This document shows, one piece after another, positions 20,298 to 26,822 of a stretch of DNA of 64,000 nucleotides. The position numbers were made by a program, and so were the translations under genes. Position 1 is the stretch's first letter. Every line of letters starts with the position of its first letter. The stretch comes from Bacteroidales bacterium (lineage in GTDB: Bacteria > Bacteroidota > Bacteroidia > Bacteroidales > Tenuifilaceae). The notes under the pieces were generated by a model that searched no databases, was not told where the DNA came from, and was given only the letters and a program-made list of their open reading frames with translations. The DNA lies in NCBI GenBank assembly GCA_028680705.1, contig JAQUJY010000003.1:1-64000 (forward strand). The letters run 5' to 3'.

Positions 20298-21551
20298 TTA
20301 CCTAAGCGATGCATTAACATGGCATACAAGCCTTGTGAGAAAGTTCACGTAGCTGCCATACTCGTTATCGTACCATCCAAAAACCTTAAGGTGCGTAACA
20401 GGAATGTTTATGGCACTGTCTGCCTTCACCCCATATTTGGCTAGAGCTTCAACGGGCAATTTAATGAAACCCGTACGGGTATGCGTTTCGTGCCCCTCAA
20501 TAACCGCAGCGGCTCTGTAGCCAATTAAATCCGAAGACACATTTTGCCTTTCAGAAAAAATCACCATGTCGCGCTGTGCCCCTGCTGCTGCATCTTTGTA
20601 GATATTGTTAATAAGGCTTCGGTTAATGGTTGGGTTACCCTTGGCATCAATCTCACTATAAAATGTTAGGTTAAGGGTAATAAGCGATACGGTACTAGTG
20701 GGAATTCGAACCGAGTCAGCCATAAACCCAATCTCCTGAATTTCGGGGATTATTGAATCGAGTGCTTTGGCTGCCCCAGTGGTTGAAAGTATAATATTAT
20801 TGAGTACGGATCGGGTTTTACGTAAATCGGATGTTCCCATACTTGGTATGGTATCGAGCACCGATTGGGTGTTAGTTGAAGCATGTACTGTTGACATTGA
20901 AGCCGTAAGGATGTTTGAGGTTGCCTCATTCTCGAGCAAAGGCTTAATCATATGTGCTAACCCAGTTGTGGTGCAGCTTGCTGCTGAGACAACATGATGC
21001 TTAAGTGGGTCAAAATTCAAATGGTTAATACCATATACCATCATTAAACTATCGTCAGGCATTTTCTTCGCCGAATCCTTAATCTTGAAGGGTGCTGATG
21101 CTACCACTTTTTTTGCACCTCCCATTAAGTGACCCCTAATGCTTCCTCTTCCTGAATCGATATCTGCTGTTGGGTCGAGAAATTGGCCTGTACAATCAAC
21201 CACAATTTGCACCCCTTCCTTAGCCCAAGGTATATTCTTTGGGTTGCGCTCCTTGGTAAGTATCTTAACGTACATCCCATCGATATCGAAAACAAAATTT
21301 TCGGCATCTATCAACTTAAATATCACCTTTTTACCTGAGTGCCCATAAAGAAAATGCTCAAGTCGACCGTAAGATGAGTCCGTCTCAAGGGCACAAATTA
21401 CATCCTCGGGCTTTTTACCTACTTCGCGACCAAGGTTTACCACAACTCCATCGAAATCACGGCTAACCAACTGATTCCAAAGCATTAACTTGCCTATTCG
21501 GCCTAAACTATTGATTCCAAGGTAATTTTTTCCTTTCACTACGGGCTCCAT
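20298..21551 (-). CDS. divergent glyceraldehyde-3-phosphate dehydrogenase paralog (417 aa)
   Basis: GINSLGRIGKLMLWNQL, catalytic AASCTTTGLAHMI, STVHASTNTQSVLDTIP...STTGAAKALDSIIPE, VRIPTSTVSLITL, WYDNEYGSYVNFLTRLV. Confidence 0.88.
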   Translation of the reverse strand: MEPVVKGKNYLGINSLGRIGKLMLWNQLVSRDFDGVVVNLGREVGKKPEDVICALETDSSYGRLEHFLYGHSGKKVIFKLIDAENFVFDIDGMYVKILTKERNPKNIPWAKEGVQIVVDCTGQFLDPTADIDSGRGSIRGHLMGGAKKVVASAPFKIKDSAKKMPDDSLMMVYGINHLNFDPLKHHVVSAASCTTTGLAHMIKPLLENEATSNILTASMSTVHASTNTQSVLDTIPSMGTSDLRKTRSVLNNIILSTTGAAKALDSIIPEIQEIGFMADSVRIPTSTVSLITLNLTFYSEIDAKGNPTINRSLINNIYKDAAAGAQRDMVIFSERQNVSSDLIGYRAAAVIEGHETHTRTGFIKLPVEALAKYGVKADSAINIPVTHLKVFGWYDNEYGSYVNFLTRLVCHVNASLR

Positions 21552-21638: not shown

Positions 21639-22655
21639 CTACACTAAACCCATTTGGTTTGCCATAATCAGAACAAGGTCAACCAGTCTGTTGGAGTAGC
21701 CAATCTCGTTGTCGTACCAAAGGATAATCTGCGCAGTGTTGTTACTTACAACTTTAGTGGCCAACGAATCGAAAATACAGGAGTATTCGCTACCAATTAC
21801 ATCGCTCGAAACAATTGGGTCGGTTGCATATTTAAGGATACTGCTCATGCTTCCTTGTGCATACTTCATTATAAGACTATTTATCGACTCCTCAGTAATT
21901 TTTTCGGGAAAAGTAATAACCAACTCCGAAAGTGCACCACAAACAATAGGCACGCGGGTTGATATTCCGTTAAACTTATTCTTTAATTCAGGAATAATGG
22001 TATGTATGGCACCAATTGCACTGGTTGAAGTTGGGATAATATTGTTGGCCGAAGCACGCGACCTGCGAAAATCGTGATGAGGCGAATCGATGATGCGCTG
22101 ATTATTGGTATAAGGATGAACCGTATTTAGGAATGCTGATTCAATGCCAATTTCATTGTTTAGCAAATTCAAAACTGGCGCAACGCAGTTGGCTGTACAA
22201 CTGGCATTGGAGATTATTCTGTGTTCAGGGAGTAATTTATCTTCGTTTACCCCTATCACTACCGTAAAATCTAGCTCATCGGATGTTGGACTCGAAAGGA
22301 TTACCCGTTTTGCTCCTGCATCAATATGCTGCTGTAAACTTTCGCGTGTGGTAAAATGACCCGACGATTCAACAACTATATCAACATCCCACTCTTTCCA
22401 AGGAATTTCCGATGGGTTTGTATGGTGCCCAATGTTCACATGCCATCCGTTAATATGTAACTGGCCATTATTTACCTCAACTTCTTTCCCAAACCTTCCG
22501 TGCACGGTATCGTACTTCAGTAGGTAAAGAAGCATTTCATCGTCCATTAGGTCATTAATTCCAACCAACTCTATTTCTGGGTGATGAGCCAATAATCGGA
22601 AGAACATCTTACCAATCCGCCCAAAGCCGTTAATCCCAATTCTTACCTTATTCAT
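21639..22655 (-). CDS. glyceraldehyde-3-phosphate dehydrogenase family protein (atypical substrate loop)
   Basis: VRIGINGFGRIGKMFFRLL, SNASCTANCVAPVL, TVHPYTNNQRIIDSPHHDFRRSRASANNIIPTSTSAIGAIHTIIPEL, WYDNEIGYSNRLVDL. Confidence 0.93.
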   Translation of the reverse strand: MNKVRIGINGFGRIGKMFFRLLAHHPEIELVGINDLMDDEMLLYLLKYDTVHGRFGKEVEVNNGQLHINGWHVNIGHHTNPSEIPWKEWDVDIVVESSGHFTTRESLQQHIDAGAKRVILSSPTSDELDFTVVIGVNEDKLLPEHRIISNASCTANCVAPVLNLLNNEIGIESAFLNTVHPYTNNQRIIDSPHHDFRRSRASANNIIPTSTSAIGAIHTIIPELKNKFNGISTRVPIVCGALSELVITFPEKITEESINSLIMKYAQGSMSSILKYATDPIVSSDVIGSEYSCIFDSLATKVVSNNTAQIILWYDNEIGYSNRLVDLVLIMANQMGLV

Positions 22656-22739: not shown

Positions 22740-25700
22740 CTAACCATGCTGTAGCTCGTAATGACCTGAATAAATACTGCCTGTATGTGCATCAACCGAA
22801 ATGGCATCGCCAGTGGTTAAATTGAATTTGCCAAAGATGCAGGCCTTTTTATGGCTCAAAACAACCATATCATTGCAGTTTACAATGCAAATTTTCCCTA
22901 GTCGCCCTGCAGTAACTGCCGCATGCGAGGTTGCTCCTCCGCGAGAAGTAATTAGGCCATCACATTCAAAAATAATTGGGAGGTCATCGGGTGTGGTATC
23001 GGAGCTAACGTAAATAAACTTACCGTCGGGGTTTAGCTCCTTTTGCTTTGCCAAATCTTTTTGGTCGAACACAATTACACCATTCAGTATGGATGCTCCA
23101 ATGGGAATCCCCTTGCCTAGCAACTTTGTTCTAGCAGGAGGTGCTTGGTACATGATTTTTACTTCTGGCTTATAAATCTGCTGGTCACGGGTTTGCAGAA
23201 CATACAAATCGTAGGGGTTGTCCGACTCAAAGGTAAACTCAATTTCCTGATGACCAAAATGCAACTCGTTCACCAGCCTTTCGGCAAGTTTAAACAGGCG
23301 CTGATATATTCTTGGCAGCTCCGTCTGTAGCGATTTGCTTTTTGAACCTTTTTTGCCCTTTCTCTGATGCTCCGAAATTGGTAGTACGTTGATTATCCCT
23401 CCTACCACATCATCGCCCTGACTTAATAGCGAGTAATCGCCGTTTAATCTCAGCCCAGGATTTTCGGTGGTAGCATCATAGGTAAAAACCACACCCGTTC
23501 CAGACGAACGGTGAATATTCCCCAGAACCATGCACTGAATAATTACAGCAGTTCCCCACTCATCGGCAATCTGTAAATGTTTACGATAGAGTTGAGCCCT
23601 TGCTCCGTCCCAGCTATCGAAAACAATATTTATTGCAGCAAAAAGTTGCTCATAGATATCGTCGTACAACGGAACTTTGCGCTTTGTAAGTAGTTCCTTG
23701 TATTCCATTGCAATTTCGCGCATCTGTTTGGGGTCAAAAAAGTCTTTAATCTCAGCACCAACGCTATCCTGATGCCTTGAAACTATGCTATCGAAAACTG
23801 CACGCTCAACCCCAAAAGCCTGCCCCCACGATTGCAAAAACCGCCTATAACAATCCCACGCTGTCCAAGCCATGTTTGGCTTTTTACTAAGGGACTCAGC
23901 AATACTGTCGTTCATTCCCACATTTAAAAAAGTGTTCATTGCCCCAGGCATCGATATGGGTGCACCCGACCTAACCGAAAGGAGTAGTGGGTTTTTGATG
24001 TCGCCAAACTGCTTACCCTCAACATGCTCAATCTTACCTAGATATTTTTTTACAGCTTTCTCAAAATCAGATTTTAAGGGTTTATAATCCATTATGGTGC
24101 TACGCCTACGAAAAAGTTCAGTGGTAAGAATAAAGCCTGGTGGTACAGGGAATTCTTCTTGATAAATACTCTTTAGAAAATAGCCTTTTGAGCCCAAAAA
24201 CACTTTATTATCAAGTTTAGGATTTGGCGTTTGTAGGGATGTAATCAGCATTTGAATATCAAAATCCACAATATCCCTTAACTTTTCTTCTGTATAAAGA
24301 AGAGCCATTTCGTTAAGGCAGCTTAGTACATCCGCAATAAAATTATCGAGGTTCTGAAGCAGAAACGAGGACGATAGCATATCGCGGTAGAACGACTCCG
24401 ATTGCTTATGAAATGAGAATTGGGTATCGGTTTCATCGGTTTCGCTAAGGTAGCGAGGAACAGTATCCTTAAGTATGCCATCGAACCGACGATAAAACGA
24501 GTTGCCAATAATCTCCTTTACGTTGTTGCTCAGAAACTGGAAGATATTAATGTACTGATTAAGCGAAAAGCTATATGAACTTAGGCTAAAACGCAGCATC
24601 TTTAGGTTTGATTCAAATCCCTTGTTGGTTATGCCATCGAGATTGAGCCCCTGATAGAAAAGCGACAACACCTCAACTATTTGTTTTAGCGTATTGGCGG
24701 TTATGTAGGATAGGTTAATGCTAGCAACAATCTGACGCATAATCTTTGAGGCTGCCTTCTCCATTTTAAAAATTCGCCCCAGTGCCTCAAATTTTGGCTC
24801 GTGGTACTGTCCATACATCGAAGGAATGCCAAATGCCACATGACGCTTATAGTATATTGTCTCCCACCCCTCAGTTTTTTTCTTGTCGGTAACAATAGTA
24901 TTCAGGTTAGTCATGCACTGGTATATAACCCTCAGCATGGTTAAATTATCGGCTGTTTTCTCTGCTTTCTCATAATCACTAATATCCTGTTGTTCAACGC
25001 ATCCACACATACGCATTTCCTGTGCAATGTCGGCTGCATCATCCAAATACTTGCTGCGTAGTATATGCACCAGATGTACAAATAGTTTCAACTTATTTTT
25101 ATGCAAATCCTCAACGCCTGAAACTTGGCCAATAGCCTTATCAATACTCTGCCTTGTTTCGCTTAAAAGGTCATATGGCGATATGTATAGATGCTCGGAA
25201 GCCTCGGTTATAAGTTTGCGCATGGGCATTAGCCACTGGTCGTCGCTCGATACAGCATCTTTAATATCCGGAGGCAGTAATGGCGATAGCTGCTCAAACT
25301 TGCCATTTATCCAATAGTCCAAGATTTTTTCTACAAAATCTAGGTGCATATTATTACTATCCACATGAATCTGTTTCCGCAAAAAGTGCATCAGCTTATC
25401 CTGCCTATTGGAGAGCGTATCAATTTCGGTTGATACATCACGAAGTTCACCCTCAGCACCAATCTCATTAAAAAACACAGGGAATAGCCTACAAAGTTCT
25501 TTTACAGGTTTAAATACCCTGCCGATATCTGCATTTAGTAAATTTGATACATTTCGCTGAAAAAGGTCAGTGTCGAAAATAAGAACACCGCCAAGTTTTA
25601 AGTTGATTATTAGGGCTGGTAAAAGTTTCTCGAAACGATTTGGGGCAATCTCTATCAGGTCGAGCCAAACGCGTAAACTTTTTAGGTGATTTGGGTCGGC

Positions 25701-26822
25701 TTTTAGCTGCCAGTCGGCACTCATAAAAGTAGTACCTGGGGGCGTAAAGCCTATTCGAATAACATTATCCTCGAACTGCGACAGCAAACTTTTGTTGTAA
25801 AAAAGTGCAAACTCCTTCCCCATTGTGGCTATGCAGTCGAGCACAATAGATTTATGCTCATCCAACAACTCCTCAAATAGCTTAAAAATGTCATCAACAA
25901 ACTCGTGTATCTCCCGAGTAGGAACTTCGCTAAGAATGCTAGCCAGTAACTTGTTTAAATCCCAAATTAAGTACTCCTTGAGATGTTCCATTGCCGACAT
26001 CCGAAAAAGATATATTATATAATAGAATTGACTAATGGGGCTGATAAATTCTGAGATTATTCCCCTATGATAATCGGCAATATCAGAAAAGAGCATCACC
26101 TTTTCAGAAAAATCATCCCATGTTTTAGCAAGGGTAACCTGCCGTTTTAGCTGGGTATAAAAATTGCTTCCAACCTTTTTAACGATGTCGATATTCTCGT
26201 CGGGAAAAAAACGCACATTAGTCATTGCCCACTCATCAATATTCGACTCACTCTGCCATTCTTCAATGGTTTTGTTGGCTATGCTCTTAAATAAGTTGAA
26301 TACTGTATCGGCCTGTGAACCTTTTTTAACCAGTGCCACCAACCTCTTTTTAAGATTATTGGCATTTCTAATAATAGACTCCTGATTTTCAGAAAAAACC
26401 TTCTCCAGTATACCTACACCTTTACTCAGAATTTCATCATGGTTAATCTCCTCAGCACATACCGATTCGAGAAAAAATGCAAGAGATTGGATGAGGCTAT
26501 CGGTATTCTCTGGTTTTTTACTTACGGATAAAAGGCTTTCATGGATATCAAGAAGCACGTCAAAGGCCTTATCTGATTTGGGTAGAGCGGCATAAAACCA
26601 AAAATCAGAAATGGCAATCTTTTTAAGATTATCACAAAGAAAATCTAGATTTTGATAAGGGTGATTTAGCTCATGGATAAATTCGACAACGCGTTGATTT
26701 AGTCCAAACTGGTCTGCAGACAATGATATAAACCAAGCATGACGCTTAGGAATAACTATATCGACATTACTGGTTTGCTGTAAATTAACTTCGAGTGCCT
26801 TTGATTCTAGTTTTTTACCCAT
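22740..26822 (-). CDS. PPDK/PEP-synthase-like phosphotransferase: large N-terminal region, PEP/pyruvate-binding ATP-grasp domain and C-terminal phospho-histidine domain
   Basis: 1360 aa. FPVPPGFILTTELFRR and LLSVRSGAPISMPGAMNTFLNVGMND (PPDK ATP-grasp signatures), CDGLITSRGGATSHAAVTAGRLGKICIVN (phospho-His domain), then ends about 45 aa later (GDAISVDAHTGSIYSGHYELQHG). No TIM-barrel PEP domain. Confidence 0.88.
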   Translation of the reverse strand: MGKKLESKALEVNLQQTSNVDIVIPKRHAWFISLSADQFGLNQRVVEFIHELNHPYQNLDFLCDNLKKIAISDFWFYAALPKSDKAFDVLLDIHESLLSVSKKPENTDSLIQSLAFFLESVCAEEINHDEILSKGVGILEKVFSENQESIIRNANNLKKRLVALVKKGSQADTVFNLFKSIANKTIEEWQSESNIDEWAMTNVRFFPDENIDIVKKVGSNFYTQLKRQVTLAKTWDDFSEKVMLFSDIADYHRGIISEFISPISQFYYIIYLFRMSAMEHLKEYLIWDLNKLLASILSEVPTREIHEFVDDIFKLFEELLDEHKSIVLDCIATMGKEFALFYNKSLLSQFEDNVIRIGFTPPGTTFMSADWQLKADPNHLKSLRVWLDLIEIAPNRFEKLLPALIINLKLGGVLIFDTDLFQRNVSNLLNADIGRVFKPVKELCRLFPVFFNEIGAEGELRDVSTEIDTLSNRQDKLMHFLRKQIHVDSNNMHLDFVEKILDYWINGKFEQLSPLLPPDIKDAVSSDDQWLMPMRKLITEASEHLYISPYDLLSETRQSIDKAIGQVSGVEDLHKNKLKLFVHLVHILRSKYLDDAADIAQEMRMCGCVEQQDISDYEKAEKTADNLTMLRVIYQCMTNLNTIVTDKKKTEGWETIYYKRHVAFGIPSMYGQYHEPKFEALGRIFKMEKAASKIMRQIVASINLSYITANTLKQIVEVLSLFYQGLNLDGITNKGFESNLKMLRFSLSSYSFSLNQYINIFQFLSNNVKEIIGNSFYRRFDGILKDTVPRYLSETDETDTQFSFHKQSESFYRDMLSSSFLLQNLDNFIADVLSCLNEMALLYTEEKLRDIVDFDIQMLITSLQTPNPKLDNKVFLGSKGYFLKSIYQEEFPVPPGFILTTELFRRRSTIMDYKPLKSDFEKAVKKYLGKIEHVEGKQFGDIKNPLLLSVRSGAPISMPGAMNTFLNVGMNDSIAESLSKKPNMAWTAWDCYRRFLQSWGQAFGVERAVFDSIVSRHQDSVGAEIKDFFDPKQMREIAMEYKELLTKRKVPLYDDIYEQLFAAINIVFDSWDGARAQLYRKHLQIADEWGTAVIIQCMVLGNIHRSSGTGVVFTYDATTENPGLRLNGDYSLLSQGDDVVGGIINVLPISEHQRKGKKGSKSKSLQTELPRIYQRLFKLAERLVNELHFGHQEIEFTFESDNPYDLYVLQTRDQQIYKPEVKIMYQAPPARTKLLGKGIPIGASILNGVIVFDQKDLAKQKELNPDGKFIYVSSDTTPDDLPIIFECDGLITSRGGATSHAAVTAGRLGKICIVNCNDMVVLSHKKACIFGKFNLTTGDAISVDAHTGSIYSGHYELQHG

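Follow-up and report, generated by a model that had tools for sequence, protein, structure and literature searches.

The described enzymes closest to the protein reported here combine an ATP-grasp domain with a phospho-His domain. In PPDK (e.g., 1KBL) these two domains are accompanied by a PEP/pyruvate TIM barrel, and in the glucan and phosphoglucan water dikinases (GWD) dikinase chemistry is combined with an N-terminal acceptor region and a carbohydrate-binding domain, in a module order that differs from ATP-grasp followed by His. Rifampin phosphotransferase (RPH) and HpeHI couple ATP-grasp and swivelling His modules to a separate acceptor domain, which in RPH lies between the two, and small-molecule dikinases as a group have diverse acceptors (PMC4844700, PMC12167813). 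VadK of M. tuberculosis (Rv1127c) is a barrel-less PPDK descendant of ~50 kDa without further domains, which is tied to the methylcitrate cycle and for which a regulatory role with the enzymes of that cycle has been proposed (PMC13400623).

In a 64,000-nucleotide stretch of a Bacteroidales genome (contig JAQUJY010000003.1; hereafter the window), we identified a 1360-aa dikinase, encoded by an uninterrupted ORF with an ATG start (Table 1), which belongs to the ATP-grasp/phospho-His dikinases and which membership tests place outside PPDK, RPH, GWD, and VadK. Its ATP-grasp and phospho-His domains align with those of PPDK over their whole length and at all catalytic residues tested, including the TSHAA phospho-His (H1300), but the barrel is absent, an 868-aa N-terminal domain is present instead, and PPDK D321 is represented by Glu (E1193), a conservative change, in all 49 members of the family. 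As in VadK, the chain ends after the His domain and there is no barrel, whereas the N-terminal extension, conserved across the dikinase family, has no counterpart in VadK. With RPH and HpeHI it shares the ATP-grasp and swivelling His modules and a separate, presumed acceptor domain, but this domain matches neither protein by sequence or fold, the order is acceptor, ATP-grasp, His, there is no RIF-binding domain between ATP-grasp and His, and the RPH model NF041857 scores 13.6 bits against a cut-off of 999. Dikinase chemistry and an N-terminal acceptor region are also features of GWD, but in the window's dikinase the His domain comes after the ATP-grasp domain, and a search for a starch-binding (CBM45-type) N-terminus gave no carbohydrate-binding Pfam match in 11 family members. 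A literature search found no paper on such a dikinase.

Table 1. Features of the dikinase locus, with positions in the window
Feature	Position	Strand	Evidence
Barrel-less PPDK-like dikinase, 1360 aa	22740..26822 (stop codon included)	-	ORF and full-length homologues
All-helical N-terminal domain, presumed acceptor domain, residues 1-868	24219..26822	-	Nothing credible in Pfam, PDB sequences or fold search; AF2; ~75 invariant residues
Invariant basic helix RQDKLMHFLRKQIH, residues 473-486, candidate anionic-substrate site	25365..25406	-	Conservation in 49 sequences
Conserved hairpin and loop WETIYYKRHVAFGIPSMYGQYHE, residues 653-675, candidate catalytic loop	24798..24866	-	Conservation and AF2
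PPDK-type ATP-grasp domain, residues 869-1215	23178..24218	-	Pfam, NCBIfam, PPDK alignment; catalytic counterparts invariant
Swivelling phospho-His domain, residues 1231-1358	22749..23132	-	PF00391 3e-15; aligned to PPDK and to solved carrier domain 2fm4
H1300 codon, equivalent of PPDK H455 (GGATSHAA)	22923..22925	-	PPDK alignment; invariant 49/49
GAP1, type I GAPDH paralogue starting 84 bp after the dikinase stop	21639..22655	-	TIGR01534 386.4 bits, over cut-off
GAP2, divergent 417-aa GAPDH with insertions	20298..21551	-	Catalytic residues kept; restricted to dikinase genomes in the Bacteroidales sample

An intact PPDK-type catalytic core without a barrel

Pfam searches of the dikinase matched PPDK_N (2.9e-24) and, at residues 1269-1348, PEP-utilizers (3e-15) and did not find PEP-utilizers_C, i.e., the PEP/pyruvate TIM barrel. 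The best NCBIfam match, TIGR01828 at residues 869-1214, reaches 339.7 bits, far under its full-length cut-off of 843, and PRK05878, a 534-residue PPDK-annotated model, matches the C-terminus with 272.7 bits, also under cut-off. PPDK chains in the PDB align to residues 874-1215 and 1233-1359, and in the NCBIfam and PDB searches no alignment extended to the barrel of PPDK. A short linker alone separates the ATP-grasp from the His domain, the C-terminal end lies directly after the latter, and no split barrel was found next door, the flanking genes encoding a GAPDH and a PGA_cap protein. These results bear out the initial annotation, which from the bare sequence had described PPDK-type ATP-grasp and phospho-His signatures (GGATSHAA) and a missing barrel.

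Ten homologues (40-82% identity) match the protein in length and layout, and the layout recurs in all 49 full-length homologues, which come from Bacteroidales and Clostridia and measure 1355-1420 aa. The catalytic His and ATP-grasp positions checked are all invariant: K879, R951, E1193, E1195, Q1210, R1212, and H1300 in 49/49, with the counterparts of PPDK K22, R92, E323, Q335, R337, T453, and H455 invariant over the same members. Three other PPDK_N proteins are encoded in the same genome, in frames of 913, 997, and 1028 aa (the latter two at G000:C71:8279-9397 and G000:C125:11329-12444), and the 913-aa frame has the length of an ordinary PPDK; the 1360-aa protein is thus not the PPDK of this genome. 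The absent barrel could be taken to indicate a truncated or decaying PPDK with no function of its own, a reading which we consider wholly implausible and which is refuted by the layout shared in 49 homologues, the invariant catalytic residues, and the separate PPDK-length protein. Carriage on a plasmid and an anti-phage role were likewise rejected, with no match in the plasmid search and none in PADLOC.

A conserved helical N-terminal domain

Residues 1-868 gave no credible match in Pfam, PDB sequences or a Foldseek fold search, in agreement with the earlier statement that the first ~850 aa belong to no recognized family. An AlphaFold2 model built from a 10-sequence alignment (mean pLDDT 82, pTM 0.68) is elongated and all-helical, with a single hairpin (residues 653-674) bearing the invariant KRH and GIPSMYG residues and with a low-confidence loop (658-669) between its two strands. 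When residues 345-1360 were modelled separately (pLDDT 77, pTM 0.61), the C-terminal half superposed on PPDK crystal structures (1KBL, ~4 A), and again no structural relative was found for the remainder. Fold matches to karyopherin/HEAT-type or designed helical repeats are not meaningful (TM <= ~0.3, rmsd mostly >20 A), and matches to DUF3802 (E 0.012), UBA_SIK3, APG12, and Melibiase were under cut-off or chance matches in single members. Weak matches to N-terminal stretches (around residues 180-350) also occur in open frames of 877-1100 aa in three genomes (G045:C87:2205-2516, G833:C2:67259-67492, and G1095:C10:40844-41074), and these reflect either chance helices or distant kinship with the domain.

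The 49 members share 159 invariant columns, ~75 of which lie within residues 1-868, where they cluster around 371-386, 417-490, and 654-688, and many are R, K, H, D, E or W. Within the basic helix, R473, D475, H479, F480, R482, K483, and H486 are invariant in 49 sequences, as are E654, K659, R660, H661, I666-G671, Y673, and E675 of the hairpin and loop. This pattern looks like an active site, and its preservation in two phyla appears more in keeping with a small-molecule site that accepts an anionic substrate than with a scaffold for loose docking. The helical N-terminus is the natural place for the acceptor, which it presumably binds, and small-molecule dikinases would in this way gain an acceptor domain without a known fold.

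Linkage to GAPDH genes in two phyla

A profile of the N-terminal domain matches 34 of 392 Bacteroidales genomes, in 18 of the 204 genera, while in a phylum sample of 393 genomes, six of them listed as belonging to the same order with the window's own genome included, the sole match is that own genome. The profile also matches 12 of 291 genomes from the class of G803 (recorded as Clostridiaceae), and these clostridial dikinases are full length except in G803 itself, where the gene is cut off by a contig end. We rejected contamination as an explanation of the clostridial match, since 11 further Clostridia carry the dikinase, three of them in megabase-length contigs.

Downstream of the dikinase and on the same strand lie GAP1 and, 87 bp beyond it, GAP2. 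GAP1 and the housekeeping GAPDH fall in separate clades of a GAPDH tree. GAP2 has conserved insertions and keeps the catalytic Cys (SAASCTT) and His (STVHASTN), the phosphate-site motifs TGAAK and VR.PT, and WYDNE; where NAD-type GAPDH has its acidic cofactor residue (IND-L), GAP2 has by alignment the Arg from a conserved GR pair. This alignment is moderately certain and suggests that GAP2 may be NADP-type. It represents a GAPDH subfamily that would be misread as a spare glycolytic gene. In one close relative, several short, repeat-bearing ORFs are present between the dikinase and GAP1/GAP2 (L008:12325-15600), genes that are elsewhere adjacent.

Scoring separates GAP2 relatives (at least 510 bits) cleanly from other GAPDHs (at most 116 bits), and on this basis 19 of the 392 Bacteroidales genomes contain GAP2, each of them among the 34 with the dikinase. 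This co-occurrence gives Fisher p values of ~2e-23 by genome and 2e-15 by genus, which are too optimistic owing to relatedness, and the robust count is the 12 families (12 genera) over which the GAP2 genomes are spread. In Clostridia, 10 of the 12 dikinase genomes contain GAP2, directly downstream in nine (often <150 bp) and on another short contig in the tenth, and the remaining two have a single GAPDH and no GAP2. Distances between dikinases and between GAP2 proteins correlate at 0.85 over 25 pairs, as co-inheritance predicts. Barrel-less dikinase and divergent GAPDH form a predicted operon, which is conserved at ~40-60% identity in two phyla. At the 41 dikinase loci outside the clostridial set, a GAPDH is the immediate neighbor in 24 and lies within 5 kb in 30, with none within 5 kb at 11.

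The Bacteroidales without GAP2 form one clade of the dikinase tree, i.e., one clade has lost GAP2. In this clade a GAPDH is often found beside the dikinase, usually divergently oriented, and according to the GAPDH tree it is the housekeeping enzyme and not the GAP1 paralogue; the link therefore arose at least twice, with different GAPDHs, and the GAPDH partners of the dikinase fall in three separate GAPDH clades. Most of the GAP2-less dikinase genomes (families f104, f126, f128, and f151) have a long GAPDH, in a frame of 483-529 aa, instead.

Repeated linkage with different GAPDHs points to GAPDH function rather than to one protein partner, and this bears on the main rival to a small-molecule acceptor, namely that the dikinase is a VadK-like, protein-level regulator whose phosphorylated H1300 signals to or phosphorylates GAPDH (GAP1/GAP2), with the helical N-terminus as a GAPDH-binding scaffold. 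GAPDH as one recurrent partner, the elongated helical model with its weak matches to helical-repeat scaffolds only, the C-terminal match to PRK05878 below cut-off, and the behavior of VadK, whose PPDK-type His is autophosphorylated and which also interacts with enzymes of metabolism (PMC13400623), are all consistent with such a regulator. We nevertheless consider it unlikely, in that the partner varies among three GAPDH clades while the N-terminal invariants stay, which is more like a shared metabolite, and in that ~75 invariant, mostly polar or charged residues are many for a docking surface.

A possible role at the 3-phosphoglycerate step

Sequence comparison establishes the domain layout, the intact catalytic residues, the conserved N-terminus, and the GAPDH linkage of what is a real, uncharacterized dikinase family, whose acceptor domain and module order are new and which is functionally tied to GAPDH in two phyla. 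Given this consistent pairing, the dikinase probably performs an unrecognized step, or controls a step, in mid-glycolysis, and its acceptor is narrowed to the triose/glycerate-phosphate level or to GAPDH itself. The initial annotation had proposed a dikinase with an unknown acceptor bound by the N-terminus. Its barrel-less machinery and helical N-terminus stand, the catalytic residues are intact, and we found no barrel either in the protein or in its neighbors, no recognized N-terminal domain, and no loss of ATP-binding residues; what it missed is the GAPDH linkage, which narrows that acceptor. It did not state the strand or notice the adjoining GAPDH genes.

To our knowledge, no gap is recognized in lower glycolysis, where PGK is the one enzyme placed between 3-phosphoglycerate and 1,3-bisphosphoglycerate, and the conserved dikinase-GAPDH operon implies an unrecognized reaction or control point there. 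We tentatively favor the reading that the dikinase transfers phosphate to 3-phosphoglycerate and that the product feeds GAPDH. The ATP-grasp domain would pass the beta-phosphate of ATP to H1300, leaving AMP and Pi or PPi, and the His domain would then swing to the 868-aa N-terminal domain holding the acceptor, an order derived from PPDK, RPH, and HpeHI in which the N-terminal domain takes the role of the pyruvate barrel. We consider 3-phosphoglycerate the most likely acceptor; it would become 1,3-bisphosphoglycerate, which the neighboring GAPDH (GAP2, or GAP1 or the housekeeping enzyme) would reduce to glyceraldehyde-3-phosphate. Such a route uphill past PGK would form AMP and be strongly driven, like those that PEP synthase and PPDK provide past pyruvate kinase. 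We infer the phosphate transfer to a small molecule, its identity as 3-phosphoglycerate, and the direction of the reaction. Bacteroidales and Clostridia might then possess a third way across this step, an AMP-forming phosphoglycerate dikinase with a dedicated GAPDH2, a suggestion made with the same reserve.

Among the acceptors considered, 3-phosphoglycerate best accounts for the GAPDH genes, the NADPH-like site of GAP2, and the neighbors of several clostridial loci, and a housekeeping GAPDH beside the dikinase in the GAP2-less clade is expected if the shared element is a metabolite used by GAPDH. Transfer between an acyl-phosphate and His has a precedent in the ADP-forming acyl-CoA synthetases. 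Among the clostridial neighbors, a phosphoglycerate-dehydrogenase-like gene follows GAP2 at three loci (L160, L161, and L164; best model TIGR01327, e.g., 3.7e-75, under the NCBIfam cut-off), and at a fourth (L163) a glycerate kinase (TIGR00045, 528 bits, over cut-off) and a GntP-type transporter precede the dikinase; these enzymes converge on 3-phosphoglycerate, in four clostridial loci only. The PGA_cap neighbor was rejected as a partner, since outside the window it was seen at the closest loci alone. Counted against 3-phosphoglycerate are that PGK does not need replacing, the clostridial genomes without GAP2, the loci with no GAPDH nearby, the restriction of 3-phosphoglycerate neighbors to those four loci, and an N-terminal fold that gives no functional hint.

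The acceptor could instead be a different C3/C4 compound close to GAPDH (glycerate, glyceraldehyde, DHAP, or erythrose-4-phosphate and its acid), with which the glycerate kinase at one locus would agree, or something unrelated, GAPDH being linked for some other reason. GAPDH-family enzymes can use other aldehyde phosphates. The acceptor diversity of small-molecule dikinases would also allow for this (PMC4844700, PMC12167813), but GAP2 keeps the usual GAPDH phosphate-site motifs and the linkage recurs with ordinary GAPDH, and we rate such a substrate as improbable, on a par with the protein-level regulator.

PGK is present in 52 of the 53 dikinase genomes, the window's own included, so that the dikinase is not a needed replacement for PGK and, if it acts on 3-phosphoglycerate, would be a driven, directional addition to it. 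The same GAPDH linkage would suit the reverse direction, in which phosphate from 1,3-bisphosphoglycerate serves to make ATP from AMP and PPi and energy is conserved, as by PPDK from PEP in anaerobes. The sampled hosts belong to mostly anaerobic groups. ATP formation by PPDK is described for bacteria and protozoa (PMC5371819). Yet PGK already makes ATP in these genomes, and GAP2, as far as its uncertain alignment goes, looks NADP-type, which suggests reductive flow; we regard the reverse direction as distinctly less probable than either a regulator or another substrate. The one dikinase genome without PGK is a draft (G574), and G644 has a divergent PGK only. A second, divergent PGK (~265-390 bits) was seen in some dikinase genomes (G052, G498, G631, G644, G836, G915, G969, and G985), and in the four Clostridia among them (G836, G915, G969, and G985) the divergent PGK adjoins another GAPDH that scores low for Gp_dh_C.
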